Of a DNA stretch of 64,000 nt, positions 1-15,481 are shown piece by piece; the stretch's first letter is position 1; each line of letters starts with the position of its first letter. Position numbers and translations under genes: made by a program. Under the pieces are notes generated by a model. It searched no databases and was not told the origin of the DNA. It was given only the letters and a program-made list of their open reading frames with translations. This DNA is from Methanosalsum zhilinae DSM 4017 (GTDB lineage Archaea > Halobacteriota > Methanosarcinia > Methanosarcinales > Methanosarcinaceae), in contig NC_015676.1 in the NCBI RefSeq assembly GCF_000217995.1, forward strand, positions 1,905,708 through 1,969,707, read 5' to 3'.

Positions 1-1
1 G

Positions 2-616
2 AATAATGAATACGGACTTTCTTCTATGGGTGGGGTGATCGTTAAGAAAATGCAGCCCCTACTGGAGACCCTGAACCTCTATGAAGATAACAGACTTTAC
101 TGGGAGAACCATAAGATAGAGGCCCTTCCATGTCATCTTTTAAATAGAATAGAGGAACTGGGTAGCTGTGAATTTGTCGAGCCAGATCTTGATAGGATGT
201 ATGACCTTCCAAAGAGGTTTGAAGAAAATCTGGAAAAATCAAAATATATTCATGAGGTATCATCATACTTCAGCCCTGCTTATTCAGGTCTTTATAAGAG
301 ACTTGTAGAAAAGGGAATTGAGATTTCATTGATCCTTACAGAAACTGTTTTTGAAAGACTGAAGAATGAATATCAATCAGACCTGGCCTTTTATCTGGGT
401 TCTGGCTATGTTAACCTGTATGTTTGTACGGAGAAGATAGAACTGGCATCGGGGGTAGTTACTGATCGGTTCCTTGCATTATCTCTTTTCTACAACACAG
501 GAATTTATCACAATCACACAATGATGAGCTTTGAATCCAGTGCAATCAATTGGGGCAAGGATCTTTTTTCCTATTATCTGGATATATCTAGAAAAATATC
601 ACAGGATGATTTCTGA
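2..616 (+). CDS. Msr-type methanogenesis regulator, C-terminal part (cut by the window edge)
   Basis: The frame is open from the first full codon, so the N-terminal part, where a winged-helix DNA-binding domain is expected, lies outside the window. The visible 204 residues match the DUF1724 (FilR1 middle domain) family of methanogen regulators: a KVKPLLETL-like motif after the missing helix-turn-helix, then an alpha/beta domain with the pattern HEVSSYFSPAYSGLY and a C-terminal stretch ending in YYLDISRKI. In Methanosarcina, proteins of this family named Msr sit beside and activate the mtsD/F/H methyl-sulfide methyltransferase genes; that is family knowledge. Because an mts-type gene follows 256 nt downstream on the same strand, I infer that this is its regulator. 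The exact Msr subgroup cannot be told without the N-terminus. Confidence 0.8.
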   Translation, partial: NNEYGLSSMGGVIVKKMQPLLETLNLYEDNRLYWENHKIEALPCHLLNRIEELGSCEFVEPDLDRMYDLPKRFEENLEKSKYIHEVSSYFSPAYSGLYKRLVEKGIEISLILTETVFERLKNEYQSDLAFYLGSGYVNLYVCTEKIELASGVVTDRFLALSLFYNTGIYHNHTMMSFESSAINWGKDLFSYYLDISRKISQDDF

Positions 617-872: not shown

Positions 873-2783
873 ATGAAAGAAGAAATACTGAACCAATTAG
901 CGGATGCTGTAGTTTCTGGTAGTAAGGAAAGTGCAGCAGAGCTTTCAAAAAAAGCTCTTGAGGAAGGAATAGACCCCCAGGAAGCACTGGTGAACGGGCT
1001 TGCTAAAGGTATGAACATAATGAGTGATAAGTATGAGACTGGAGAAGCCTTTGTCCCTCATCTATTGATCGCATCCGGTGCAATGTATGCTGGTATGGAA
1101 GTGCTTATACCCCACCTAAAGAAAGAAGGAGCTGGCAGACCTGCAACAGGGGTTATAGGTACTATTGAAGGAGATGTACATGACATAGGCAAGAACCTTG
1201 TCAAAACAATGCTCAGCGCAGCAGGATTTAATATGATAGATCTTGGTAACGATGTTCCTCTTGAGGACTTTGTGAAGGCTGCAAAGGAAAATAAGGCTGA
1301 TATCATATCCATGAGTGCACTGATGACTACTACAATGGTGGGCATGGAAAAGGTCATTGAAAGCCTTCAGGAAGAAGGTATCAGGGATGCGGTAAAGGTA
1401 ATGGTCGGTGGAGCACCTGTTTCCGAGGAATTTGCAGAAAAGATTGGTGCTGATTCAACCCATCCTGATTCTATGGGTGCAGCTGACTGGGCTACAAATG
1501 CTGTAAAAAGTATGCCACCTGCAGATGAGAGATGGACTGAGGAGAAGATAAGCCTTGGAAAGGTCAAATACAGGGATGTTCTGGCAAAGAAAAAAGCCAA
1601 GGTTGGAGCTGCAAAGGATATTGGCCTTGAGACTGCCCGTGAGATCATAGATGAGTTTGAAAAAGTAGGTGTAAAGAAGAAAGAGGAAATGACCCATATA
1701 GACAGGGTAGTCTCATCCCTTGGAGACAAAAAGGTTGACCGTCTTCCTGTATACCCACTTGCCTGTGGAGTTCTGAGAAAGTTCGTACCTACAACCTATA
1801 GAGAATATACAACTGATCCGGAAATGTTTGCCCAGAGTGCCTACCTGGGAGTAAAATACATGGACCTTGACATGTTTGTAGGTCTTGTTGATCTGTCAAT
1901 TACATCCTCTGACCTTGGATGTAAGGTAAGTATACCGGATGAGGATACTCCTGCGTCAGTGGGTCACCTGGATGACTATGATAAAATAGAAATTCCCGAG
2001 GTAAAGGAAGGAACACGTATATATGAGCTGATCCAGGCTTCAAAACTTGCAAAAGAGAGACTGAACAAGGAACTCAATGCACCATTTGTAGCTTTCCATG
2101 AAGGACCGCTTCTTACACTAACCCAGTTGATGGGTGCGGACCGTGTTCTTATGGATATGAAGACAAATCCGGACGTTGTTCTTGATGCAGTAGATAAGAT
2201 GACTGATTTTGTATGTGACATCTCTGAAAAGTTCTTTGAAGAGGATGCATGTGATGGTCTTTGTATAGATAATCTCTGGTCCAACAATGTAATTATGAGT
2301 GAGGATGATTACTGGAAGTTTGAAGGTAAGTTTGTTAAAGATCGCCATGTGCCCCTCTTTAAAGAATACAATCAGCCATACATGATCCACAGCTGTGCTG
2401 ACAATGTCCACTTTGATATTCAGATTAAAGAATTTGGTACAGGACTGTTCAGCTATGCATATTATCCAAAACTCAGGAATAAAGGATCCAAGAATTATGC
2501 AGACCTTATTCCAAAATATGGTGACATGTGCTGTATGATGGGAGAAGTAGATCCAATCAAATTCATAGATCCCTCTCCAGAGGGCGTACAGAGCATTGAG
2601 AATGATACTGAGGAACTTCTCAGGGGTGTACTTCCGGTTCTCAAAGAAAATGGACTGCAGTCAAAATATGTCATGTCTACAGGATGTGAAATTCCACCAG
2701 GCGGTCCGTTGAACGGTGTAAAGGCTATGGTAGATACTGTCAAGAAACTTGGTCCGGACTTACAGAAAGAGATCATGGGCTGA
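873..2783 (+). CDS. Corrinoid protein/methyltransferase fusion of the MtsD/F/H type (methyl-sulfide:CoM methyl transfer)
   Basis: This 636-residue protein has two parts. Residues 1 to about 215 form a corrinoid protein: a helical cap followed by the B12-binding motif GDVHDIGKN, with His103 as the lower cobalt ligand. Residues from about 260 to the end form a uroporphyrinogen-decarboxylase-fold methyltransferase with candidate zinc ligands His506 and Cys508 (IHSCAD) and Cys605 (TGCEIPPGGP). This fusion is typical of the Methanosarcina MtsD, MtsF and MtsH proteins, which carry methyl groups between methylated thiols such as dimethyl sulfide and coenzyme M. An Msr-type regulator lies upstream, and a chaperone-like gene block follows 281 nt downstream. 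A GGAG sequence precedes the ATG at 873. Cytoplasmic. The fusion class is clear; the exact substrate is inferred. Confidence 0.88.
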   Translation: MKEEILNQLADAVVSGSKESAAELSKKALEEGIDPQEALVNGLAKGMNIMSDKYETGEAFVPHLLIASGAMYAGMEVLIPHLKKEGAGRPATGVIGTIEGDVHDIGKNLVKTMLSAAGFNMIDLGNDVPLEDFVKAAKENKADIISMSALMTTTMVGMEKVIESLQEEGIRDAVKVMVGGAPVSEEFAEKIGADSTHPDSMGAADWATNAVKSMPPADERWTEEKISLGKVKYRDVLAKKKAKVGAAKDIGLETAREIIDEFEKVGVKKKEEMTHIDRVVSSLGDKKVDRLPVYPLACGVLRKFVPTTYREYTTDPEMFAQSAYLGVKYMDLDMFVGLVDLSITSSDLGCKVSIPDEDTPASVGHLDDYDKIEIPEVKEGTRIYELIQASKLAKERLNKELNAPFVAFHEGPLLTLTQLMGADRVLMDMKTNPDVVLDAVDKMTDFVCDISEKFFEEDACDGLCIDNLWSNNVIMSEDDYWKFEGKFVKDRHVPLFKEYNQPYMIHSCADNVHFDIQIKEFGTGLFSYAYYPKLRNKGSKNYADLIPKYGDMCCMMGEVDPIKFIDPSPEGVQSIENDTEELLRGVLPVLKENGLQSKYVMSTGCEIPPGGPLNGVKAMVDTVKKLGPDLQKEIMG

Positions 2784-2818
2784 ATAGACGAATAGTTGTT
2801 TCATGTAAAAAAAGTGAG

Positions 2819-2838
2819 GGCTTTGATGCATTAAAGCC
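2819..2838 (+). terminator. Small hairpin after the mts-type gene
   Basis: GGCTTT and AAAGCC flank an 8-nt loop, 35 nt after the stop codon. No T-run follows directly, so this may be an attenuating or RNA-stability hairpin rather than a full terminator. Confidence 0.35.
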
Positions 2839-2878
2839 AGCAAATATTCATATCTTACTGTGGATATGTTCCATTTGC

Positions 2879-2908
2879 GGGCTGTTCAATGCCCTGTTAT
2901 TATTTTTT
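2879..2908 (+). terminator. Hairpin with T-rich tail between the mts-type gene and the HyuA-like gene
   Basis: GGGC pairs with GCCC across an 8-nt loop and is followed by TGTTATTATTTTTT. It may partly separate transcription of the methyltransferase from the downstream accessory genes. Genes 3065-8257 could be expressed at a lower level or from their own promoter. Confidence 0.4.
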
Positions 2909-3064
2909 GCAGAAATATATCGGTAACAGATGCTATTTGCCTGTCAACCCGACATTTACGAAACTGGAATAATTTGAAAATAACATGTATGTAAGAAAAA
3001 AGGTGGATTGTGTTCTCCTGAATTTTAGGGAAGCAATTATACATCTGAAAATAGGAGGAATTTA

Positions 3065-5092
3065 ATGAGTCTTGGTCTTGGAATTGATACTGGGGGGACA
3101 TATACAGACTCGGTGATCATGGACATTTCTAGTGGATCCATACTTGATTCCAATAAATCACTGACAACATACCCTGACCTAATTACAGGGATACAGAATT
3201 CAATTGACGGGCTTGACACCAGGCTTCTGGAAAAGGTTACAAACGTTTCCGTTTCCACCACACTGGCAACAAATACCACACTTGAAGGAAAAGGTTATCC
3301 TGCTGCAATGATTCTGATTGGATACTCAATTCCAAAAGGTCTTCCAACACAGCATGTGATATCTGTAAAAGGAGGGCATGATGCAGATGGTTATGAGATC
3401 GATGATCTGGATGATCCTGAAGTAATCAAAGATTTTGTAATGTACTGTAAGAACAAGGTTGCTGCATTTGCAGTCTCGTCGTATTTTGGTGTACGAAATC
3501 CTGATCATGAACTGAAAGTAAAAAAGATAATACAGGATCTGACAGATATGCCAGTGGTCTGCGGGCATGAACTGTCACAGGGGTTGGGAGCTTATGAGAG
3601 ATCAGTCACTGCACTGTTAAATGCCCAGCTTATACCGGTAACAAACCAGTTTATACAATCAATACTTTCAGTGATGAAAGAAAGACATATCAGTGCAAAC
3701 CTTATGATGATGAAATGTGATGGTTCGCTGGTAAAGATAGAAGAGGCACTGGAAAAACCGGTCGAGTCCATATTCTCAGGTCCTGCTGCCAGTCTTGTAG
3801 GTGCAGCTCATCTAACAAAACTTGATACATGCATGACAGTTGATGTTGGTGGTACAAGCACTGATATATCCTCTTTATCAGAAGGAATCCCTATCATCAG
3901 TGACTCAGGTGCTGTTGTAGGCGGATGGAGTACAATGGTAAAGGCTATCAAGATGAATACATCTGCAATGGGAGGGGATAGTCATGTGTGGGTTCAGTGG
4001 AAGCCTTCAATCGGGCCCGGAAGAGTTATTCCTCTATGTTATGTAGCTTCGCAGCACCCGGAAGTTGTGGACAAGCTTGAAAAAATAAAAGAGGATCGAA
4101 AGATTTCTGAAAGGATTATGGACCGTATCATACAACCTGTGTCTTTTTTTGTCCGCAGTGAATCTGATCCCAGAACTCTGGAACGGTTAAACGATAATGA
4201 AAAAGAGATACTTGATGCACTTTCAGATGAACCCTTATCCATCAAAGAAATAGCCGGGATTACAGGGCACCATCCTCTGATGTTTGGTAATATCCTGGAG
4301 TCACTGATACAGAAAAGGCATATTAGCCATATAGGATTTACTCCAACAGATGCACTTCATGTACTGCAGGACTATGAAAAATGGAATTCAGAGGCTTCAC
4401 ATCTGGGCGCAGAGATTCTGGCAGAATATGTGAAGATGGATAAACTATCTTTCTGCACACATGTAAAGAAGAAAGTCGCCTTTAATATTGCACAGAACCT
4501 TGTTTCCTTTGTTGCGGAGGATGTGAAGAAAGAGGAAATTGAGAAATTGATGCAGAACTCCGAGAATCTCAGGTTCAGGTTAAATGTACCGGTTGTGTTG
4601 ATCGGGGCACCAGTCGAGGCTTTTCTGGAAGAGCTGAAAAGTGTTATTGATGGAGAAATCACTGTTCCTGAATATTATGATGTTGGAAACGCTGTAGGTG
4701 CACTTGTAGGTAATATCATCCACAGATCAGATGTTCTCATCAGGCCTTCAGCTGCAGGAAGCAGCCAATATTCAGTATTCTGTGAAGCAGGAAAAATGGT
4801 ATTTGATGAATATGGCCAGGCAGTGGATTATGGTATAAAATTCATAAACGACAGTATGGCAGAATATATGAATAGCTATGGGCTCAGCATGGACAGAATA
4901 CAGTTTGACCTGAAAAGGGATGATATAAAAAGTGAAACAGGTTCTGTCATTGAGACCAGATTAACAGGAGTTGGCATAGGATCACCAAGGAGGTCAGATA
5001 ATGAATGGGTTAAACGCTGGAATGAATCCACAGGACCAAATGAGCAGCATGGATGCTCTAGCCCGGAGTGTGCGGGCAAAGATAGGGATTAA
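3065..5092 (+). CDS. HyuA-like ASKHA-fold ATPase (hydantoinase/oxoprolinase family) with inserted winged-helix segment
   Basis: A strong Shine-Dalgarno, AGGAGGA, precedes the ATG. The 675-residue protein carries the two phosphate-binding motifs of the ASKHA (actin/Hsp70) fold: GIDTGGTYTDSVI at residue 6 onward and VDVGGTSTDISSL near residue 260. Hydantoinase and oxoprolinase A subunits share this architecture, but no partner HyuB gene is present, so amide hydrolysis is unlikely. Residues about 375-430 look like an inserted winged helix-turn-helix (LSIKEIAGI, then ILESLIQKR and IGFTPTDALHVL). The gene lies between a corrinoid methyltransferase and a chaperonin. Diol dehydratase reactivases and corrinoid-protein activators also use ASKHA folds, so I infer a role in loading or reactivating the corrinoid enzyme. 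The last 92 nt overlap the next gene. Confidence 0.8.
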   Translation: MSLGLGIDTGGTYTDSVIMDISSGSILDSNKSLTTYPDLITGIQNSIDGLDTRLLEKVTNVSVSTTLATNTTLEGKGYPAAMILIGYSIPKGLPTQHVISVKGGHDADGYEIDDLDDPEVIKDFVMYCKNKVAAFAVSSYFGVRNPDHELKVKKIIQDLTDMPVVCGHELSQGLGAYERSVTALLNAQLIPVTNQFIQSILSVMKERHISANLMMMKCDGSLVKIEEALEKPVESIFSGPAASLVGAAHLTKLDTCMTVDVGGTSTDISSLSEGIPIISDSGAVVGGWSTMVKAIKMNTSAMGGDSHVWVQWKPSIGPGRVIPLCYVASQHPEVVDKLEKIKEDRKISERIMDRIIQPVSFFVRSESDPRTLERLNDNEKEILDALSDEPLSIKEIAGITGHHPLMFGNILESLIQKRHISHIGFTPTDALHVLQDYEKWNSEASHLGAEILAEYVKMDKLSFCTHVKKKVAFNIAQNLVSFVAEDVKKEEIEKLMQNSENLRFRLNVPVVLIGAPVEAFLEELKSVIDGEITVPEYYDVGNAVGALVGNIIHRSDVLIRPSAAGSSQYSVFCEAGKMVFDEYGQAVDYGIKFINDSMAEYMNSYGLSMDRIQFDLKRDDIKSETGSVIETRLTGVGIGSPRRSDNEWVKRWNESTGPNEQHGCSSPECAGKDRD

Positions 5093-6608
5093 TGAGTCTG
5101 TAGAGGACGAGGAGCTGATGCATCATGTGGAAAGGGCATGTACAGAGATATATGATCTTCTTGTCTCATCCTATGGTCCCCGTGGCATGAATAAGATGAT
5201 CATTAACCCTGTAAATGACGTATTTCTCACAAGCGACGGGAAAACAATAATGGAAGAGATTGATATACTGCATCCGGTAGTAACTTCCCTTAAGGATATT
5301 GCAAAATCAATGGACAGAGCATGCGGAGATGGTACCAAAACCGCAGTGATACTGGCTGCAGGTCTAATCCGGAATGCTTCTATGCTCATTAAAAGAGGTG
5401 TTCATCCATCAACCATAATCAAAGGATACAGACTTGCTCTGAACAAGACATATGAGCTTCTTGAACACGAAAGCTTTCCTGCAAAATCCTATGAACAGAT
5501 GTATGCTGCTGTTCTAAGCTCGACTGCAGGTAAGGGTATAGATTTCATTATGGCAGACAAGCTTGCCAGAAACATGATGGGCATAGTAGAAAATCTTGAT
5601 AATATGTCTGAGGGTGGATTCCTTGACCTTGATGAGAATGTGAGTATTATAAAGAAGGTAGGAAAACCTGATATTGTTTCTATATCTGGTGTAATACTTG
5701 ATGAGAGACCTGCAAGAAAGGATATGCCAGATACTCTTGATAATCCTGAAATATTGATCTTAAAAGGCGATGTCAGTTTTAAGAGTGCTTTTTTGAATTC
5801 TCAGCACAATATCAGGATGGACAGTTATGAAACTTCAGTGATGTTTGAAAAAGAGCAGAAGAGAATTGTAAATGATTTTACCCGAAAAATCGTTTCCAGT
5901 GGTGCAGAAGCAGTTTTCTGTGAAGGCGATGTTGACCCTTTAATTGAATCCACCCTGTCCAGAAACAGGATTCTGCTATTTAAGAAACTTCAACCAAAAG
6001 ACCTCCTGCGATTATCAAAATCTACAGGTGCAACAATGATGTCCATCCATGATGACGATTTGTGTGAAGGCACCGGCAGGGCTGAGAGAGTGGAGGTCTC
6101 AAAAAAGTGTAATGAGTATTTTGTGTTTGTCAGGTCTCATAACAGGATGATATCTACCATTCTTATCTGGGAACCTGTCAGATATGGCCTGGAAAAGATT
6201 GAGGAGGCTGCAGATGATGCTCTGACAAATGCAGCTTTCATTCTAAGAAACAGAATGATTGTAACAGGCGGAGGTGGAATCGAGTTCATATTATCCCAGA
6301 TGCTTCGAAGCTATGCCACTACCATCGAGGGCAAGGAACAGCTGGCTGTGGAAGAGTATGCCTCTGCTCTTGAAGATATTCCAAGGATCCTGGCAAAAAA
6401 CGCAGGTATGGATGTGTTCGATTCAATGGCACAGATGTCAGGATACTATAACAGGGGAATTGATGCAAGAATAGATACTTCAGGCAGAGTATGCGAGAAT
6501 AACCCTCCGATATATGACTGTGCATCCATTAAGAAACTGGCAATTATCTCTGCTACTGAGGCTGCAAGCAATGTTCTAAGAATTGACCGGATTCTGGCAA
6601 AGAGTTAA
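5001..6608 (+). CDS. Divergent group II chaperonin (thermosome/Cpn60-like)
   Basis: This 535-residue protein spans the full length of a thermosome subunit. Recognisable are YGPRGMNK (normally GPxGMDK), SDGKTIMEEIDILHP, the catalytic loop GDGTKTAVILAAGL, DDALTNAAF in place of the usual DAL motif, VTGGGGIEF and LAKNAGMDVF. The usual nucleotide-domain signature ending in RGG is replaced by STILIWEP, and the C-terminus lacks the Gly/Met-rich tail. It is therefore a paralogue and not the housekeeping thermosome. AAGGAGGT 8 nt before the ATG at 5001 fixes this start, inside the upstream gene. Methanosarcina species carry atypical Hsp60 paralogues, and I recall that some lie near mts genes. Its position suggests a client in the methyltransferase system; this is inference. 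Confidence 0.85.
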   Translation: MNGLNAGMNPQDQMSSMDALARSVRAKIGINESVEDEELMHHVERACTEIYDLLVSSYGPRGMNKMIINPVNDVFLTSDGKTIMEEIDILHPVVTSLKDIAKSMDRACGDGTKTAVILAAGLIRNASMLIKRGVHPSTIIKGYRLALNKTYELLEHESFPAKSYEQMYAAVLSSTAGKGIDFIMADKLARNMMGIVENLDNMSEGGFLDLDENVSIIKKVGKPDIVSISGVILDERPARKDMPDTLDNPEILILKGDVSFKSAFLNSQHNIRMDSYETSVMFEKEQKRIVNDFTRKIVSSGAEAVFCEGDVDPLIESTLSRNRILLFKKLQPKDLLRLSKSTGATMMSIHDDDLCEGTGRAERVEVSKKCNEYFVFVRSHNRMISTILIWEPVRYGLEKIEEAADDALTNAAFILRNRMIVTGGGGIEFILSQMLRSYATTIEGKEQLAVEEYASALEDIPRILAKNAGMDVFDSMAQMSGYYNRGIDARIDTSGRVCENNPPIYDCASIKKLAIISATEAASNVLRIDRILAKS

Positions 6609-6632
6609 TTAGCAGTATGAGAGTGATCTATT

Positions 6633-7646
6633 ATGAATCAAAAAGATCGGGTACTGAATGCACTGAACCTCAAAAGCGTGGATAGGGTCCCGGTTGGTTC
6701 ATTTACTACAACTCCTGTGCTTGAACTTATGGAGGCATGCGGTGCATTCAGACCAGAGGCTGACCATGATCCTGAAAAAATGGCGCTGCTTGCGTTGTCG
6801 GCTCATGAAAACTGCGGATTTGAGACCGCCAGGTTTCCTTTTGATATGACCGTCCTTGCAGAGGCTGTGGGATGTACGATAGATCCGGGTACCACCAGCA
6901 GGACCCCAGCAGTTATTGAGGGGCTCAAATTTGATGATCCAGATGATCTGAATTTCATACCGGATGACCTTTGCAAAGAGGGCAGAATTCCGCAAGTACT
7001 TGAAGCTGCATATATTGTTCGAAAAAGTTTGGGGGATGATGGTTTGACAGTGGCAGGACATGAGGGACCTGTAGACCTTGCTGCAAATATTGTGGGTATG
7101 AAGGAATTTCTGCTGTTGACTCTCAAGAACAGGCCCTTTGTTGAGAGATTGCTGGATATATGTGCCGATGCATGTATCGAATACGGTAATGCCTGCATAG
7201 CTGCAGGAGCAGATGCTGTATGTGTGGCAGATGCAATTTCATCTCCTGGTATTCTTCCACCTAATGACTTTGAAGAACTTGCCCTTCCCAGATACATCCG
7301 TATTTCCAGCAGTCTTAAAGGTCCAGGAGTACTTCATGTATGTGGCAGAGTTGACCTGATCACTGATAGTATTACAGAATGTGGATTTGATGGGATCAGT
7401 GTAGAGGAGAGTGTTCAGGATCTGAGAAATCTTATCACAACAGCCCATGAAAAAGATGTGGCTGTAATTGGCAATGTATCTGCATCGTCAACCCTGTACT
7501 CTGGTAGTGAGGAGGATGTAAATGCAGAGACTCTAGAAGCCCTTGATTGCGATATTGATATAATTGCACCTGGGTGTGGCATTGCACCAGAGACACCGAT
7601 AAATAACCTGAAGGCAATGGTGAAGGCCAGAGACAGTTATTATTAG
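6633..7646 (+). CDS. MtbA/MtaA-type methylcobamide:CoM methyltransferase homologue
   Basis: This 337-residue protein has the uroporphyrinogen decarboxylase fold. It starts NQKDRVLNAL, typical of methylcobamide:coenzyme M methyltransferases, and contains the zinc-site pattern HxC...C: His235 and Cys237 in LHVCGR, and Cys315 in APGCGIAP. Family members move a methyl group from a corrinoid protein to coenzyme M, which is activated as a zinc thiolate. It lies 24 nt after the chaperonin gene, apparently in the same transcript. The upstream fusion already carries a methyltransferase domain, so this one may serve another corrinoid protein or complete the route to CoM. Which methyl donor it uses cannot be told. 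Confidence 0.85.
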   Translation: MNQKDRVLNALNLKSVDRVPVGSFTTTPVLELMEACGAFRPEADHDPEKMALLALSAHENCGFETARFPFDMTVLAEAVGCTIDPGTTSRTPAVIEGLKFDDPDDLNFIPDDLCKEGRIPQVLEAAYIVRKSLGDDGLTVAGHEGPVDLAANIVGMKEFLLLTLKNRPFVERLLDICADACIEYGNACIAAGADAVCVADAISSPGILPPNDFEELALPRYIRISSSLKGPGVLHVCGRVDLITDSITECGFDGISVEESVQDLRNLITTAHEKDVAVIGNVSASSTLYSGSEEDVNAETLEALDCDIDIIAPGCGIAPETPINNLKAMVKARDSYY

Positions 7647-7669
7647 CTGTTTTGGAGTGGGGTAAATTG

Positions 7670-8257
7670 ATGAAAATTATTATGATCGGAGGTATCAGGG
7701 GTTCAGGTAAAACTTCTCTGATAAGAAGACTAGCTGGACATTTCACTGCCAGGGGGTTGAAAGTGGGAATTGTTGTTACTGAACTGGGTGAGATTGAATA
7801 TAATGAGAGTTCAGATGAAGTATTCGTAAAGCATTCTGTGAGTGATTGTGTATCATGTACATTCCGATATGATGTGGTACATGCACTCATTGATATGTTC
7901 AGTACTTTTACTCCAGACATTGTTTTTATAGAAATTGCAGGCATTGCATTTCCTGGAAGGCTTGAAGAAGATATCGAAGAGCATGTGGATGTTGCAGGAC
8001 TTGAGGTTATACCTGTGATATATATGGTGGATGCTGCTGAATTTATACCAGATACTGAAAAGATTCCAAAATTTGTTATAGATCAGATTAACAGTGCTGC
8101 TGCAGCCTGTATTAACAGGATCGATCTCGTTGAAGGTGAAAAAATTGAACAGATCAAATATGTACTGGAGAAAACCAGGCCTTCAATTCATGTTTTCTGC
8201 TTTTCTTTGAAATTAAATAAAGGAGATCTGGATGATCTTATACAGTTTTTAAGTTAA
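7670..8257 (+). CDS. G3E-like P-loop GTPase (CobW/HypB/MeaB-like metallochaperone)
   Basis: The ATG at 7670 follows GGGGT and is preferred over an upstream TTG at 7652. The 195-residue protein has a Walker A motif GGIRGSGKTS (residues 7-16), a hydrophobic strand ending DIVFIEIAG near residue 88, and NRID near residue 148 as a variant of the guanine-specifying NKxD. A CVSC pair (Cys60, Cys63) sits where many COG0523 proteins have a CxCC metal motif. It is shorter than CobW proteins and lacks their C-terminal domain. G3E GTPases deliver metals or cobalamin to enzymes; MeaB guards a B12 mutase. It is the last gene of the mts-associated block, so I infer a role in corrinoid or metal insertion. 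Confidence 0.75.
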   Translation: MKIIMIGGIRGSGKTSLIRRLAGHFTARGLKVGIVVTELGEIEYNESSDEVFVKHSVSDCVSCTFRYDVVHALIDMFSTFTPDIVFIEIAGIAFPGRLEEDIEEHVDVAGLEVIPVIYMVDAAEFIPDTEKIPKFVIDQINSAAAACINRIDLVEGEKIEQIKYVLEKTRPSIHVFCFSLKLNKGDLDDLIQFLS

Positions 8258-8337: not shown

Positions 8338-10032
8338 ATGGACCAGGAAACTGAAGGTCCTGATCGACATGAATCCTGCATGAGATTTCGTATGATCTTT
8401 GAAAACTGTCCCACTGGAATGCTCTATATTAACAGAATGGGACTGGTAGATGATTGCAATAGTAAATCTTTAGAAATACTTGCAGTCAGCAGAGATGATA
8501 TTGTGGGTTCAGATCCTGGAAGTTTTCTGTCAGGGGAACAGATAAATGAGGTTATTGAATCAATCCTTTCTTCAAAGGTCAATTATCATGAATCTGAATA
8601 CAGAACAAAGAATCATGATAATCCCATTCCCTTAAAAGTATATCTTAGTCCTCTTCCAGACCAGGAGTTGCCATCCGGGGTAATCTGTGTACTTGAAGAT
8701 ATTTCCAGGGAAAAAAGTATTGAAGAAGCTTTACTTATGGATGAGTCCAGACTGGAGGCGCTCCTTCGTCTACATCAGATGACAGATGCTACAATACAGG
8801 AGATAACTGATTTTGCCAGAGAGGAGGCTGTCAGGCTTACTGGAAGCAAACTGGGATATCTTGCCTTTTTGAATGAAACAGAAGATGTTCTTACAATGCA
8901 TTCATGGTCAAGGGTTGCTATGAAAATATGCAGGATCAGAGACAAACCAATTGAATATCCGGTTGGGACCACTGGCCTCTGGGGTGAGGCGGTAAGGCAG
9001 AGAAAGCCTGTTATCACAAATGACTACAGGGAACCCAATCCACTTAAAAAAGGGTATCCAAAAGGTCATGTGGAACTTACCCGGCATATGAATGTACCTG
9101 TATTTGATAAGGATAAGATCGTCCTTGTCGCTGGTGTGGGAAATAAGGATACTGATTATGATCAGTCCGATGTTCGCCAGCTTACACTGTTGATGCAGGG
9201 TATGTGGACCTTACTCAAACACAAGAAAGCAGAGGATGCTCTGAAGAAATATTCAAATAAACTGTCACAGGTAAATAAAGAGCTATGGGAAGCAAATAAG
9301 GAACTTAAGTCCCTCAACCAGCTTAAAAACGAGTTCATATCCAATGTAAGCCATGAACTTAAAACACCTCTGGTTTCGATCAGGGGGTATAGTGAGATCA
9401 TGAATGGAGAAAACCTTGGTCCGCTAAACGATAAACAAAAAAGGGCAGTTGAAACGATTTTAAGGAACAGTGAACGATTAAGGCGCCATGTTGATTCTCT
9501 TATGTATATAAGTATGGAACAGATGGGTAAGATCCGATACAGTTTTGATTCCATAAATATCGAGGGTATTATTGATGATGCAATAACTGATATCCTTCCT
9601 CAGATAAGAGATACCGGAAAAGATCTGAAACTTGAGAAGAACGTATCAGAGGATCTACCTGAGATTCAGGGAGATGCCCAGAAACTTACAGATCTGCTGA
9701 CAAACCTGCTGAGCAATTCTGTTAAGTTTACTCCGGATGGTGGCAGGATATCAATTAATGTGAAGCAGGAGGGCGATGAACTTCACATAGTGGTTGAAGA
9801 TACAGGTATTGGAATTCCAAAAGAGGTGATACCGGATATTTTTGATAGATTCTATCAGATTGATTCCTCAACAAAGAGAAAATTTGGGGGTACCGGAGTG
9901 GGATTGTATATATGCAAGAGCATTGTGGAAGGGCACAGTGGAAAGATATGGGTTGAAAGTGACAGAGGAAAGGGAACATCTGTTCATGTAAAACTGCCTG
10001 TAAAAAATAGGCCAGAAGAAAAAAAACAGTAA
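8338..10032 (+). CDS. Sensor histidine kinase with PAS and GAF domains
   Basis: This 564-residue protein has no membrane segment and is probably cytoplasmic. Domains in order: PAS (about 12-125, starting FRMIFENCPTGMLY); GAF (about 140-305, with LGYLAFLNE and TTGLWGEAVRQRKP); a short coiled coil (310-330); HisKA with the H-box NVSHELKTP (His339); and HATPase_c with N-box LLTNLLSNSVKF, G1 DTGIGIP and G2 GGTGVGLYIC. The start follows GGGGTGA. No response regulator gene lies nearby, as is common in methanogens. In Methanosarcina, the heme-binding kinase MsmS and related kinases lie near mts/msr genes and use this GAF subtype. Cys198 in the segment after LTMHSWS may be comparable with the heme-linking Cys of MsmS. 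This needs an alignment. Confidence 0.88.
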   Translation: MDQETEGPDRHESCMRFRMIFENCPTGMLYINRMGLVDDCNSKSLEILAVSRDDIVGSDPGSFLSGEQINEVIESILSSKVNYHESEYRTKNHDNPIPLKVYLSPLPDQELPSGVICVLEDISREKSIEEALLMDESRLEALLRLHQMTDATIQEITDFAREEAVRLTGSKLGYLAFLNETEDVLTMHSWSRVAMKICRIRDKPIEYPVGTTGLWGEAVRQRKPVITNDYREPNPLKKGYPKGHVELTRHMNVPVFDKDKIVLVAGVGNKDTDYDQSDVRQLTLLMQGMWTLLKHKKAEDALKKYSNKLSQVNKELWEANKELKSLNQLKNEFISNVSHELKTPLVSIRGYSEIMNGENLGPLNDKQKRAVETILRNSERLRRHVDSLMYISMEQMGKIRYSFDSINIEGIIDDAITDILPQIRDTGKDLKLEKNVSEDLPEIQGDAQKLTDLLTNLLSNSVKFTPDGGRISINVKQEGDELHIVVEDTGIGIPKEVIPDIFDRFYQIDSSTKRKFGGTGVGLYICKSIVEGHSGKIWVESDRGKGTSVHVKLPVKNRPEEKKQ

Positions 10033-11574: not shown

Positions 11575-11990
11575 GATAATCTCCAGGAGATACAGTATAT
11601 GTTACCTATATTATTAGGATATGATGGAAGTGGAGTGAAAATATTCTTCCATTTATGTAACTATGTTATGTAACAAAATTCTGTATTTTTCTTCTGTAAC
11701 AATTCTTCTGTTATTTATTTCTAATCTTTGTACAATACTCTATATGCCCAAAAGATAACGGATTTGAGGGTACAGAAAAACGAACATCACGGTGATCATT
11801 GTTTTTGTCGGATTACGGCTCAAACATAAAAACGATTTCCTAAAAACGGCCTTTTACCGTGATTAAGCCGGAAAGTCACAGATTGCAGATATGTGATCTG
11901 TGGCAAATCCTGCATGTCAATTGCAGTTTTCCAGGCACGTATCCTTCAAAGCTGTATCCAAATCAAAAAAAGCGGGATATGGGGGTAAGT
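11575..11990. promoter_or_regulatory. Divergent intergenic region: xseA promoter and long leader of the beta-helix protein gene
   Basis: No convincing coding sequence is seen in these 416 nt. The left part is A/T-rich and should hold the xseA promoter (minus) and a TATA box for the + strand gene. It also has TGTTA-TG-TAACA at 11664-11675. The right part contains several inverted repeats: ATCAC-G-GTGAT at 11786-11796, whose ATCACGGT can also pair with ACCGTGAT at 11856-11863, and CACAGAT/ATCTGTG around 11877-11902. A longer reading frame from 11859 exists, but the signal peptide only begins after 11991, so this stretch is more likely an untranslated leader. Confidence 0.45.
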
Positions 11991-13322
11991 ATGTTGATAC
12001 AATCAAGAATAATGAATAAAGAGACTACTGGATCTATATTGAAAATAGGAATGATCGCATTTTTAATGGTAATGTTTATGGCAGTAGCTGCATCAGCAGA
12101 TGTTGACAGCGGATCCGTTGAAATTGTGAACGAAAGTGGTGCGAATGATATATTTGATTCGATTCAGGCTGCCATTAATGCTGCAGAAGACGGAGACACT
12201 ATTGTAGTGAATGAAGGAACTTATAAAGAATCCCTGAGTATAACTAAAGAAGGTTTAACCATACAGGGAATGGATCAGGATAACGTAATAATTGATGCCA
12301 GTGATAAATCAGGCTATGCGATATCTGTTGAAGCTTCAAATGTTAGTCTTGAATCATTTACTCTTGTTGGAACAGGTGATCAGACACATGGCTATGGAAT
12401 CAAGGTAGGGCCTGAAAGCAATGGAATTCTAATATATGATATAAGTGTTAAAGACAGTCAGAGAACAGCCATTGACCTTCATGGAGTCAGTGATGCTCTG
12501 GTCAAGGATGTCCATGTTTTTGGTGTTGCTTCTGGAAATGGAATTGCAGTTACTGATTCTGAAGATGTTGTGATTGATGGAGCTGTAACCGATTCCAATG
12601 CATGGGGTGGTATTGCGCTTTACACAAGTGGAAATTACGTCGACGCCGGGATCCGTAATATAGCAATCATAAATTGTCTGTTCTCCAATGAACAGAATGG
12701 AATTTATCTTCATGACAGTGCAGATGCAGGTGAAAACGCATTCGTTGATATATCTATTATAGATAACGCCTTTAATAACAATAGTATTCAGATTTCAACA
12801 ATAAATAAAGACAAAATTCCGTCGTATGTCAGTGACATCAATTTCAATGACCTGGCTGAAGAAAACACATTTGATCTTTCTGTTGTGGTTCTTGACGAAG
12901 AATCCAAAATAAAGGTTCCTGTAATCTTTAGCAGTATACAGGATGCAATTGGTGCTGCAGAAGCTGGAGATACTATTGAAGTTTCTGAAGGTACTTATAA
13001 CGATGATTTAACTATTGATAAAGCCAGTCTTACCATAAGATCACTTTCAGGACCTGCTGAAACCACCATTATGGGTGCTACAGTTAAGGTTGCTGCTGAT
13101 GATGTGACAATTGATGGTTTTACAATTGACAATGAAGGTGGAGAGCGTGTAGTCGGTCCTGGTAGTACCAGCAATACTACAATCAAAAACAATGTACTTG
13201 TTAATTCTATGCGAGGTATCCAGGGTGACTGGTATGGAATACCTGCAGACCTTACGATCTTAAACAATGTGTTTAAACGCAGTATGGGATTGCTGGAACT
13301 GAGGGTATGTCTAATCTATTGA
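11991..13322 (+). CDS. Secreted parallel beta-helix (NosD/PbH1-like) protein, N-terminal half before a frameshift
   Basis: The ATG at 11991 follows GGGGGT and leads into a signal peptide (ILKIGMIAFLMVMFMAVAASA). Two copies of a repeat follow: SIQAAINAAEDGDTIVVNEG and SIQDAIGAAEAGDTIEVSEG, each leading into Asn/Ile/Thr-rich beta-helix rungs such as VTIDGFTIDNE. Such PbH1 repeats form right-handed beta-helices in exported surface or carbohydrate-acting proteins. The frame ends in a TGA at 13320-13322, but the sense continues in the next frame: a repeat-like reading resumes as IAGTEGMSNLLIENN from 13289 on. One missing base near 13283-13291 would explain this. The gene is therefore broken in this copy, or the sequence has an error. 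Confidence 0.75.
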   Translation: MLIQSRIMNKETTGSILKIGMIAFLMVMFMAVAASADVDSGSVEIVNESGANDIFDSIQAAINAAEDGDTIVVNEGTYKESLSITKEGLTIQGMDQDNVIIDASDKSGYAISVEASNVSLESFTLVGTGDQTHGYGIKVGPESNGILIYDISVKDSQRTAIDLHGVSDALVKDVHVFGVASGNGIAVTDSEDVVIDGAVTDSNAWGGIALYTSGNYVDAGIRNIAIINCLFSNEQNGIYLHDSADAGENAFVDISIIDNAFNNNSIQISTINKDKIPSYVSDINFNDLAEENTFDLSVVVLDEESKIKVPVIFSSIQDAIGAAEAGDTIEVSEGTYNDDLTIDKASLTIRSLSGPAETTIMGATVKVAADDVTIDGFTIDNEGGERVVGPGSTSNTTIKNNVLVNSMRGIQGDWYGIPADLTILNNVFKRSMGLLELRVCLIY

Positions 13323-15481
13323 TAGAGAATAATATATTTGAAACATCTGATGAGGGAATAGGACTTGGTGAAGGTGTAGAAATCAAGAACATTATCGGTA
13401 ACCACTTTTCAGGCGAAGGTGTGCACATAAAAGACTATCGAACTGCCCCTGAAATGACATACATTGATACTTTGTTAAATGAGAATACTTTTGGCACAAC
13501 TGTTATTGTTCAGGACCATGAAGGAAACATAGAGCTGGCAACTATTTTCAGCAGCATACAGGCTGCGATCAATGAAGCTTCAGGTGGAGACATTATTGAA
13601 GTGGCTTCAGGCAGTTATGAAGAAGTTATCACGGTAGATGTGGAAAACATAACTCTCAGGTCTGCAGAAAGGCATGGTGCTGTTATCAATGGCACTGTAA
13701 CAATAAAGGCAGATAATGTTACAGTGGATGGATTTACAATCAGGGATAGTGAAGCACCTGTTTTGATAGAATTCCATGGTACTGATGGGACTTCAATTCT
13801 TAATAACAGAGCAGAAGCAAGTCTTAACTCACAGGCAAAGCTGGCAGCAGGGAACTGGTATGGTGCCAGTGTCGGTGATTCCTCAATAAAAAACAATGAA
13901 TTTGTTGGGGCAGTTGGTCTCTATCCAAAGGACGGGGCTGTTATAGAGATTGTTAACAATACAGTAAATGGTGCATATCATGAAGGAATATGGCTTGTTC
14001 CCGATGCTGATGTAGTGCTAACTATTGAGGATAATACAATAACTGACCATGATCTTGCAGGTGATAATCTTTCAGAAATAAAGGTAGTCAGCAGACCTGC
14101 GTCAATCAATGATGAAACAACATCAGGTGAAATGAAAGAATCTCTGTTGATTGAAAATTCAGTAGACTCTGTATACCTGCAGTGGGCAACGGTAAAGGAT
14201 GGTCAGAGTATTCAGGATGCTATTGATGCAGCGCTTGAGGGTGATACTATAGAGGTACACCCAGGGACCTATACGGAATCACTGTCTGTTAACAAAGACA
14301 GCCTTATTTTAAAATCTTTAGAAAAACATGAAGCTAAGGTTGATCGAATAAGAATTCAGGCAGATAATGTAAGGATAGATGGTTTTTACCTGCAGGGAGA
14401 TGGAACACTTCGTGGTGCCATTGACGAAACGGGTTCCAGGACCGGTTATACAATTGAGAACAACCTTATAAGAGACCATATAACTGGTATTTTCATAAAC
14501 GACGGATCAGATGGGGTCATTGATAATAACGTAATAGATAACGTTGTTGCTGGTATTGCCCTATCAAGTGGTACATCAAGCCATACTGTCATAAACAATA
14601 TTATTACAAATGCTTCTGATGAATGTATAGGAATAGCAGGGCCAGATAATAATATTGAGAAGAATGAACTGAGAGATTCGTCTGCAGGTATAAAAATATT
14701 TAAGGGCACATGGTCACTGGAAAACACCATCATCACAGATAACGTGTTCTGCAGCAGCAATAACTATGCAATTTCTAATGAAGCTTTAGAATTAATTGAT
14801 GCCCGTTACAACTGGTGGGGACATCCGTCCGGTCCATCCGGTGCAGGTCAGGGTTCAGGTGCTGCTGTTTCAGATAATGTAGACTATCGTCCATGGCTTC
14901 TTGAGGCTGGCGGTGAAAGATTTGATTTCACACTTGTTCTTGGACAGGGCTGGAATGTTGTCTCTGCTCCTTCGAATATTGAACAATATGAGATCAAGGG
15001 TGATGTTGCAGCATGGCTGGCACATACAGCATCTGGCTGGGTAAGCGATGAGTCTGTTATATCAAAGGAGTTCAAAAACCCTGCAGGAGCTGTGTTTGTA
15101 AATGCCAATGAGACACTTGGTGTAGGTTATATATGGGCTGATTTTGGACCTGGAGATGACTTTGCAAACAAACAGCTCAGAGAAGGCTGGAATCTCATAG
15201 GCGTAGGTAATACGGATGATTCCATGAATCGCCTGAGCAATCTGAAATATGAAAGTGGGGAAGGTATAACCTCCATTTACTCTCCAAATGTCTTCAACCA
15301 GGTGAAGGATGTAAGTTACCACTGGCAGATATCACAGATGGATAAGACCTCATGGAAAAATGAGGATAAGATGTATCGCCTGGATGGTTACTGGGTTTAT
15401 CTGCGCGGATCCGATCGGGTGCACAGCGTGACCGTAGAACCTGCAGGATCTGCATCTGACCTGGTTTCTGAAGCCATTTGA
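13307..15481 (+). CDS. Secreted parallel beta-helix protein, C-terminal half after the frameshift
   Basis: This frame continues the upstream protein. It contains the third and fourth repeats (SIQAAINEASGGDIIEVASG and SIQDAIDAALEGDTIEVHPG), many PbH1 rungs (VIDNNVIDNVVAGIAL), and a C-terminal domain of about 180 residues rich in Trp and Gly (GQGWNVVSAPSN, then REGWNLIGVGNT) with no transmembrane anchor. The ATG at 13307 is probably not a natural start: it has no signal peptide, and coding sense extends upstream to about 13289 in this frame. The intact protein would be about 1,160 residues, exported and possibly bound to the S-layer or cell-wall polysaccharide. The next gene encodes a PGF-CTERM surface protein. 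Confidence 0.72.
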   Translation: MSNLLIENNIFETSDEGIGLGEGVEIKNIIGNHFSGEGVHIKDYRTAPEMTYIDTLLNENTFGTTVIVQDHEGNIELATIFSSIQAAINEASGGDIIEVASGSYEEVITVDVENITLRSAERHGAVINGTVTIKADNVTVDGFTIRDSEAPVLIEFHGTDGTSILNNRAEASLNSQAKLAAGNWYGASVGDSSIKNNEFVGAVGLYPKDGAVIEIVNNTVNGAYHEGIWLVPDADVVLTIEDNTITDHDLAGDNLSEIKVVSRPASINDETTSGEMKESLLIENSVDSVYLQWATVKDGQSIQDAIDAALEGDTIEVHPGTYTESLSVNKDSLILKSLEKHEAKVDRIRIQADNVRIDGFYLQGDGTLRGAIDETGSRTGYTIENNLIRDHITGIFINDGSDGVIDNNVIDNVVAGIALSSGTSSHTVINNIITNASDECIGIAGPDNNIEKNELRDSSAGIKIFKGTWSLENTIITDNVFCSSNNYAISNEALELIDARYNWWGHPSGPSGAGQGSGAAVSDNVDYRPWLLEAGGERFDFTLVLGQGWNVVSAPSNIEQYEIKGDVAAWLAHTASGWVSDESVISKEFKNPAGAVFVNANETLGVGYIWADFGPGDDFANKQLREGWNLIGVGNTDDSMNRLSNLKYESGEGITSIYSPNVFNQVKDVSYHWQISQMDKTSWKNEDKMYRLDGYWVYLRGSDRVHSVTVEPAGSASDLVSEAI

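Follow-up and report, generated by a model that had tools for sequence, protein, structure and literature searches.

The subject of this analysis is a block of five genes (positions 873 to 8257) in a 64,000 nucleotide stretch of the Methanosalsum zhilinae DSM 4017 genome (contig NC_015676.1, positions 1,905,708 to 1,969,707), referred to below as the window. The block is an MtsD-type dimethyl sulfide (DMS) methyltransferase locus, in which a fused corrinoid/coenzyme M (CoM) methyltransferase is followed on the same strand by a HyuA-type ASKHA ATPase, a divergent group II chaperonin, an MtaA-family methyltransferase, and a small G3E/CobW-family GTPase. The locus probably makes and maintains the MtsD-type DMS:CoM methyltransferase, with a private chaperonin and a HyuA accessory acting alongside RamA. 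Comparative genomics points very strongly to the Mts fusion as the client of the chaperonin, and folding or assembly of the fusion is its likely mode of action. That HyuA loads or remodels the corrinoid is a reasonable guess, and a tentative one. No function of the accessory genes was found described in the literature searched.

Linkage of the chaperonin to mts genes

Across 238 genomes of the class, a strict search identified a clade of 60 chaperonin genes of the type found in the window, in 47 genomes belonging to ten genera. The same search located mts fusions in 53 genomes. These include all 47 that have the chaperonin, and no genome has the chaperonin without mts. Co-occurrence in relatives, which the initial annotation put forward as a check, is indeed found: 58 of the 60 chaperonin genes have an mts fusion on their own strand at a distance of 0.2 to 3.1 kb, and the HyuA linked to mts form a clade of their own, described below. 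The remaining two chaperonin genes are on contigs that start inside the upstream HyuA gene. The similar neighbourhood that the annotation gave for mts loci in Methanosarcina acetivorans is also correct, being present at the mts loci of genome G148, which we take to be M. acetivorans C2A, with an agreeing chaperonin count. At mtsD-type loci the chaperonin is usually one HyuA gene downstream of the fusion, and Methanolobus-type loci have a tight operon with the order mts-HyuA-chaperonin-(URO-D)-RamA.

Six genomes, including G161, G166, and G170, have mts without the chaperonin; in these the mts copies run into contig ends, and it is plausible that near-identical chaperonin copies disrupted the assemblies and caused the breaks. 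Several genera have members with and without the mts-chaperonin pair, and each time both come or go together. Chance clustering of the chaperonin with mts was rejected (Fisher 1.5e-43, a guide only, as the value treats the genomes as independent), and the patchy presence of the pair within several genera supports the same conclusion.

Within one genome, the chaperonin of the mtsD locus and that of the mtsF locus usually resemble each other (95-97% identity, 96.8% in G148) more closely than orthologues of different species do (approximately 90%). The enzymes are far more diverged than the chaperonins, with each mtsF-type copy about 55% identical to the MtsD-type query. This likeness of the chaperonins within a genome, despite the divergence of the enzymes, suggests that they may have been homogenised by gene conversion and may serve as one shared pool.

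Two virtually identical mts-type chaperonins are found on one contig in L072 (11953-13578 and 19124-20749), one after mtsD-HyuA and the other after mtsF; as far as the sequences tell, this is a recent duplication or gene conversion. In L191 (G157) and L192 (G154), the mtsF-side chaperonin is in fragments, while each of these genomes keeps an intact copy on the mtsD side.

Sequence and class of the chaperonin

The chaperonin matches the Cpn60_TCP1 profile over its full length, including the built-in lid region. Its scores with group II models far exceed those with GroEL, and it does not have the group I fold. All of the curated thermosome cut-offs are above its scores (338 against 671, 323 against 450, and 321 against 400 bits), and the genome of M. 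zhilinae also encodes three ordinary thermosome subunits, which are 31-34% identical to it. Its signatures are SDGK (78-81), GDGTK (109-113), and a catalytic-type DDAL (405-408).

When 44 aligned members of the clade are compared with six thermosomes, 16 substitutions are common to at least 95% of them. These include the lysines K81 and K113, which adjoin the nucleotide-binding aspartates in SDGK and in GDGTK. The latter motif replaces the thermosome GDGTT in all 44 members, and K81 is replaced by Arg in one. The C-terminal tail of the thermosomes is missing from the clade copies compared. D79 and D406, the latter presumably at the position of the catalytic D386 of the M. maripaludis chaperonin, are kept in the 44 aligned Methanosarcinaceae copies. 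Identification as an ordinary thermosome subunit was rejected on the scores below cut-off, the GDGTK motif, and the absent tail, with the catalytic aspartate being the one thermosome feature of these that is present. An AlphaFold model of the chaperonin, based on an alignment of 8 rows, was of poor quality (pLDDT 52) and was set aside.

It could still be argued that the general thermosome has here an additional subunit for methyl-sulfide conditions, which is beside mts through shared regulation only. The protein does belong to Cpn60_TCP1, archaeal thermosomes can be hetero-oligomeric, and published reviews class the extra copies in M. acetivorans as thermosome subunits (PMC6420498). However, a general chaperone would not be missing from every genome that lacks mts, and this protein is in a separate, tail-less clade, is below every curated cut-off, and has 16 fixed differences, two of them pocket lysines. 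A distant family, where the neighbours are different, shows the same pairing with mts. An extra thermosome subunit is therefore unlikely.

A second, distant pairing of fusion and chaperonin

A phylum-wide genome sample was searched for full-length fusions outside the Methanosarcinaceae. In this sample they occur beyond the family in two genomes, G378 and G496, which are the only 2 with a full-length fusion among the 55 of family f10. In each, the fusion is directly followed by a chaperonin gene, approximately 8-66 bases away depending on the start codon, and the chaperonin by a convergent RamA gene. An mts-type HyuA is absent from both loci, and mcrA was not found in either genome, of which G496 is only 54% complete. 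The link between chaperonin and fusion is therefore independent of HyuA and, apparently, of methanogenesis.

The distant chaperonins keep K113 and lack the tail. At the metal-binding and hydrolytic aspartate positions, D79 is replaced by K and D406 by N or S. The retention of K113, the loss of the tail, and the position of the gene suggest that these chaperonins may share an origin with the clade; the chaperonin tree, with no more than three deep groups, cannot show a common origin on its own. Both distant genomes encode a protein of 180-188 aa in the interval from the mts-linked chaperonin to RamA (L209 3639-4205 and L210 9589-10131), and the L209 product has no Pfam match.

The replacement of D79 and D406 in copies that keep K113, and the alteration of the pocket residues K81 and K113 across the clade, could also indicate that the chaperonin is not a folding machine but stays in the methyltransferase complex as a structural component or cage, and the MtsAB of M. 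barkeri is a 480-kDa complex (PMC7374477). Against this, both aspartates are kept in the aligned Methanosarcinaceae copies and other corrinoid methyltransferases need no such cage, making a cage very unlikely. Nor is there much probability that the ring is a permanent enzyme-specific compartment or assembly scaffold, with an ATP pocket re-tuned by the two lysines in the Methanosarcinaceae and, in the distant family, a pseudo-chaperonin that has lost the hydrolytic aspartates and still accompanies the fused enzyme.

Folding or assembly of the fusion by a private chaperonin, with HyuA as an accessory, remains the preferred explanation, and several observations count against it. The loss of D79 and D406 from the distant copies is at odds with a universal folding cycle driven by ATP. 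The mtsH-type loci and some second mts copies have no adjacent chaperonin, and any chaperonin service there would therefore be in trans. Two genomes have a pseudogene in place of an intact mtsF-linked chaperonin. MtsF/CmtA has reportedly been made in E. coli and reconstituted with cobalamin, and the chaperonin is perhaps not strictly required. For HyuA, only about half of the family loci (39 of 80) are near corrinoid methyltransferase genes, and the family may thus function more widely.

The surplus chaperonins of M. acetivorans

Genome G148 has exactly five group II chaperonins and one group I chaperonin. Two of the group II chaperonins are in the mts clade, the first close to mtsD and the second close to mtsF. 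M. acetivorans is likewise published as having five and one, against three of group II in each of M. mazei and M. barkeri (PMC5220055). A 2019 review gives M. acetivorans as the only known case of five subunits, with METAC 4 and 5 clustering together and assigned no role (PMC6420498). The two mts-linked chaperonins of G148 are apparently METAC 4 and 5, for which no link to mts was found in the literature searched. The M. acetivorans genes MA4384 (mtsF) to MA4394 are co-regulated upon HdrED depletion (PMC11619418), and from the position of the gene this should include the adjacent chaperonin.

The Mts fusion enzyme

The fusion has the architecture of its approximately 635 aa class, an N-terminal corrinoid domain and a C-terminal URO-D methyltransferase. 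It retains the corrinoid DxHxxG motif as DVHDIG (101-106) and the zinc ligands of the CoM methyltransferases, H506 and C508 (H506-x-C508) and C605. This is the sole full-length mts fusion in the M. zhilinae genome. Its identity to the G148 copies is 72% for the mtsD locus, 67% for the mtsH-type, and 55% for the mtsF-type, and it is assigned to the MtsD type because the first of these is the highest. M. zhilinae is a DMS degrader (PMC10689795) and, in M. acetivorans, DMS is preferred by MtsD and methanethiol by MtsF (PMC7374477); DMS is the predicted substrate of the fusion in the window.

The HyuA-type ATPase

The predicted structure of HyuA is confident (pLDDT 89, pTM 0.86) and matches subunits of acetophenone carboxylase, N-methylhydantoinase, acetone carboxylase, and caprolactamase. 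RACo and the dehydratase activators are only distant ASKHA relatives among the structural matches. The ASKHA phosphate motifs are invariant; there is no iron-sulfur (ferredoxin-like) cysteine motif and no RACo domain. A diol/glycerol dehydratase-type reactivase, with which this gene was first compared, was rejected because HyuA has no DDR Pfam match and no reactivase is among the listed structural matches; the protein is of the hydantoinase/carboxylase type instead. RamA/RACE was also rejected, RACo_C_ter and the 4Fe-4S motifs being missing. There is no HyuB partner beside the HyuA in the window and none was recognised beside its orthologues, of whose unmatched neighbours not all were annotated.

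The M. zhilinae genome has three close paralogues of this HyuA, one by RamA, one near mtbB/mtbC, and one near two mtaCB pairs. In a tree of 90 HyuA sequences, a single clade with support 96 holds 19 rows, among them all 16 mts-linked copies; the three further rows are from truncated mts loci or are a Methanosarcina copy adjoining Mrp-like antiporter genes. The HyuA linked to methanol (mta) and methylamine (mtb) genes are outside the mts clade. On this tree, the HyuA paralogues are split by their putative partner system, whether mts, methanol, or methylamine.

Methanomassiliicoccales-type loci (L126, L129, and L143) have HyuA with unfused mts-like corrinoid and URO-D genes and no chaperonin nearby. 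This suggests that the chaperonin may belong to the fused enzyme and that HyuA may serve corrinoid methyltransferases more widely. Related proteins, labelled HydA, are present in bacterial glycine-betaine methyltransferase clusters (PMC9768040), and the M. acetivorans relatives MA4395/MA4396 have been named 'predicted hydantoinases' (PMC11619418).

In the Methanosarcina loci L063 and L064, mts-clade HyuA paralogues directly adjoin Mrp-like antiporter genes, and the L064 copy is near mtsH. Two adjacent DUF1638-type genes are between two HyuA paralogues in L052 (10590-12267), close to RamA and mtbC; DUF1638 recurs at other methyltransferase loci.

RamA, the GTPase, and a putative mechanism

The initial annotation noted that RamA is not in the window, which is correct, and proposed that the block supplies a self-contained machine for cobalamin loading and reactivation. 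RamA has not been replaced, as the genome encodes it at C1:502,710-504,332 (803 bits against a cut-off of 500) with RACo_C_ter and the 4Fe-4S motifs present, and the self-contained machine stays a matter of inference. In many relatives RamA is inside the mts operon, next to HyuA and the chaperonin. The GTPase does belong to G3E/CobW, as first proposed (PF02492, 79 against 21 bits), and the MeaB type with which it was compared was rejected (TIGR00750, 15 against 241 bits). The metal motif CXCC is CVSC here and CICC or CVCC in most relatives. This gene is the most variable part of the block and its position is irregularly occupied among the loci.

HyuA and the GTPase could in principle form a corrinoid reactivation system that takes the place of RamA, since B12 enzymes are served by other ASKHA and G3E proteins and HyuA is weakly similar to MutL/GlmL, a family that accompanies B12 mutases. 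This is highly improbable in view of the RamA of this genome and its place with HyuA in the mts operons of relatives, the lack of a RACo domain and of a ferredoxin-like cysteine cluster in HyuA, and a GTPase that has no CXCC and is irregular in its occurrence.

In the mechanism proposed here, the corrinoid of the fusion would accept a methyl group from DMS, and the fusion would then pass it to CoM. The private chaperonin, separate from the general thermosome, would bind the new two-domain fusion and fold or assemble it, possibly during cobamide insertion. HyuA would serve its specific partner as an ATP-driven accessory, remodelling, loading, or re-activating the corrinoid protein either upstream of or together with RamA, which would reduce Co(II) to Co(I). 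The MtaA-like protein may give extra CoM methylation, and the CobW-type GTPase may be an optional accessory in metal or cofactor handling.

Layout of the locus

Open reading frames and domain matches bear out the five genes of the initial annotation, with their positions, strand, and spacing (Table 1). HyuA and the chaperonin overlap by 92 nt, which is followed by gaps of 24 nt and of 23 nt to the ATG at 7670, the likelier start of the GTPase because its relatives align from that Met. A ribosome-binding-like GGAGGT is just 5' of the chaperonin ATG at 5001 and the reading-frame ends of HyuA and the chaperonin overlap in 17 of the 32 loci compared; the overlap is therefore not due to chance. The block extends beyond 873-8257, with a PAS-GAF sensor kinase and then an Msr-type regulator just upstream, and a second PAS-GAF kinase that begins 80 nt 3' of the GTPase. 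The regulator occupies the same position in the loci of relatives.

Table 1. Genes of the mts locus in the window of M. zhilinae and its flanks
Feature	Position	Strand	Length	Remarks
Msr-type regulator (HTH + FilR1_middle)	1..616	+	263 aa (full gene)	cut by window start; full gene G000:C1:1905532-1906323
MtsD-type corrinoid/CoM methyltransferase fusion	873..2783	+	636 aa	PF02607, PF02310 and URO-D
HyuA-type ASKHA ATPase	3065..5092	+	675 aa	Hydant_A_N and Hydantoinase_A; stand-alone, mts-specific clade
mts-specific group II chaperonin	5001..6608	+	535 aa	Cpn60_TCP1 at 391 bits
MtaA-family methylcobamide:CoM methyltransferase	6633..7646	+	337 aa	URO-D; NCBIfam MtaA 411 against cut-off 400
small G3E/CobW-family GTPase	7670..8257	+		G domain only; open reading frame from TTG 7652, likely start ATG 7670
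PAS-GAF histidine kinase	8338..10032	+	564 aa	related to MsmS-like kinase upstream of block

Elsewhere in the window, two overlapping open reading frames of 487 and 724 aa are found at 11859-15481, the second encoding a right-handed beta-helix protein. In a sister genome they correspond to one longer open reading frame (L058 11018-13155), which has at least 712 aa and is still open where the contig ends, and a frameshift in M. zhilinae is likely. The product of 48979-50133 matches the O-phosphoseryl-tRNA(Sec) selenium transferase family (SepSecS), which is its putative function.

Comparison with known systems

The usual view of group II chaperonins (thermosome/CCT) is that they fold proteins in general, and we know of no earlier operon-encoded private group II chaperonin. 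If the explanation preferred here is true, the surplus chaperonins of M. acetivorans are explained and there is a likely job for extra archaeal chaperonins that have no published function. It would also provide a simple, genetically tractable system with one client for the study of how CCT-type rings choose their clients. DMS-dependent methanogenesis and the heterologous production of the fusion enzymes would then probably require the mts-type chaperonin and the partner-specific HyuA.

The M. zhilinae enzyme shares the fused architecture and motifs of MtsD, MtsF, and MtsH and is closest to MtsD, but its genome has one fusion only. METAC 4 and 5 are of the same clade as the chaperonin and adjoin mtsD and mtsF in G148; they were published as thermosome subunits of M. 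acetivorans, whereas the clade spans ten genera. HyuA shares its fold and nucleotide motifs with the hydantoinase/carboxylase A-type ASKHA proteins, and differs from them in having no B-subunit, in its corrinoid methyltransferase neighbours, and in its partner-specific clades. RamA/RACE are likewise ATPases of the ASKHA superfamily that are found at the same loci, but they have RACo_C_ter and two 4Fe-4S motifs, all of which HyuA lacks, and RamA is present together with HyuA.

The closest functional parallel to the mts-type chaperonin is found in the bacterial binuclear-iron monooxygenases. Their GroEL-like chaperonins of the MmoG/MimG type are encoded in the operon, and the monooxygenase reportedly depends on them for its functional expression (PMC7994243, PMC9324122). 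In both cases a divergent chaperonin is tied to the operon of one catabolic metallo-enzyme, and the genetic linkage to one enzyme that characterises dedicated operon chaperonins is present in the mts-type chaperonin. MmoG and MimG are group I chaperonins without a built-in lid and have a di-iron partner, whereas the mts-type chaperonin is archaeal, of group II, has a B12-dependent partner, and has an ASKHA ATPase alongside. The mts-type chaperonin is therefore not a member of the MmoG/MimG family.

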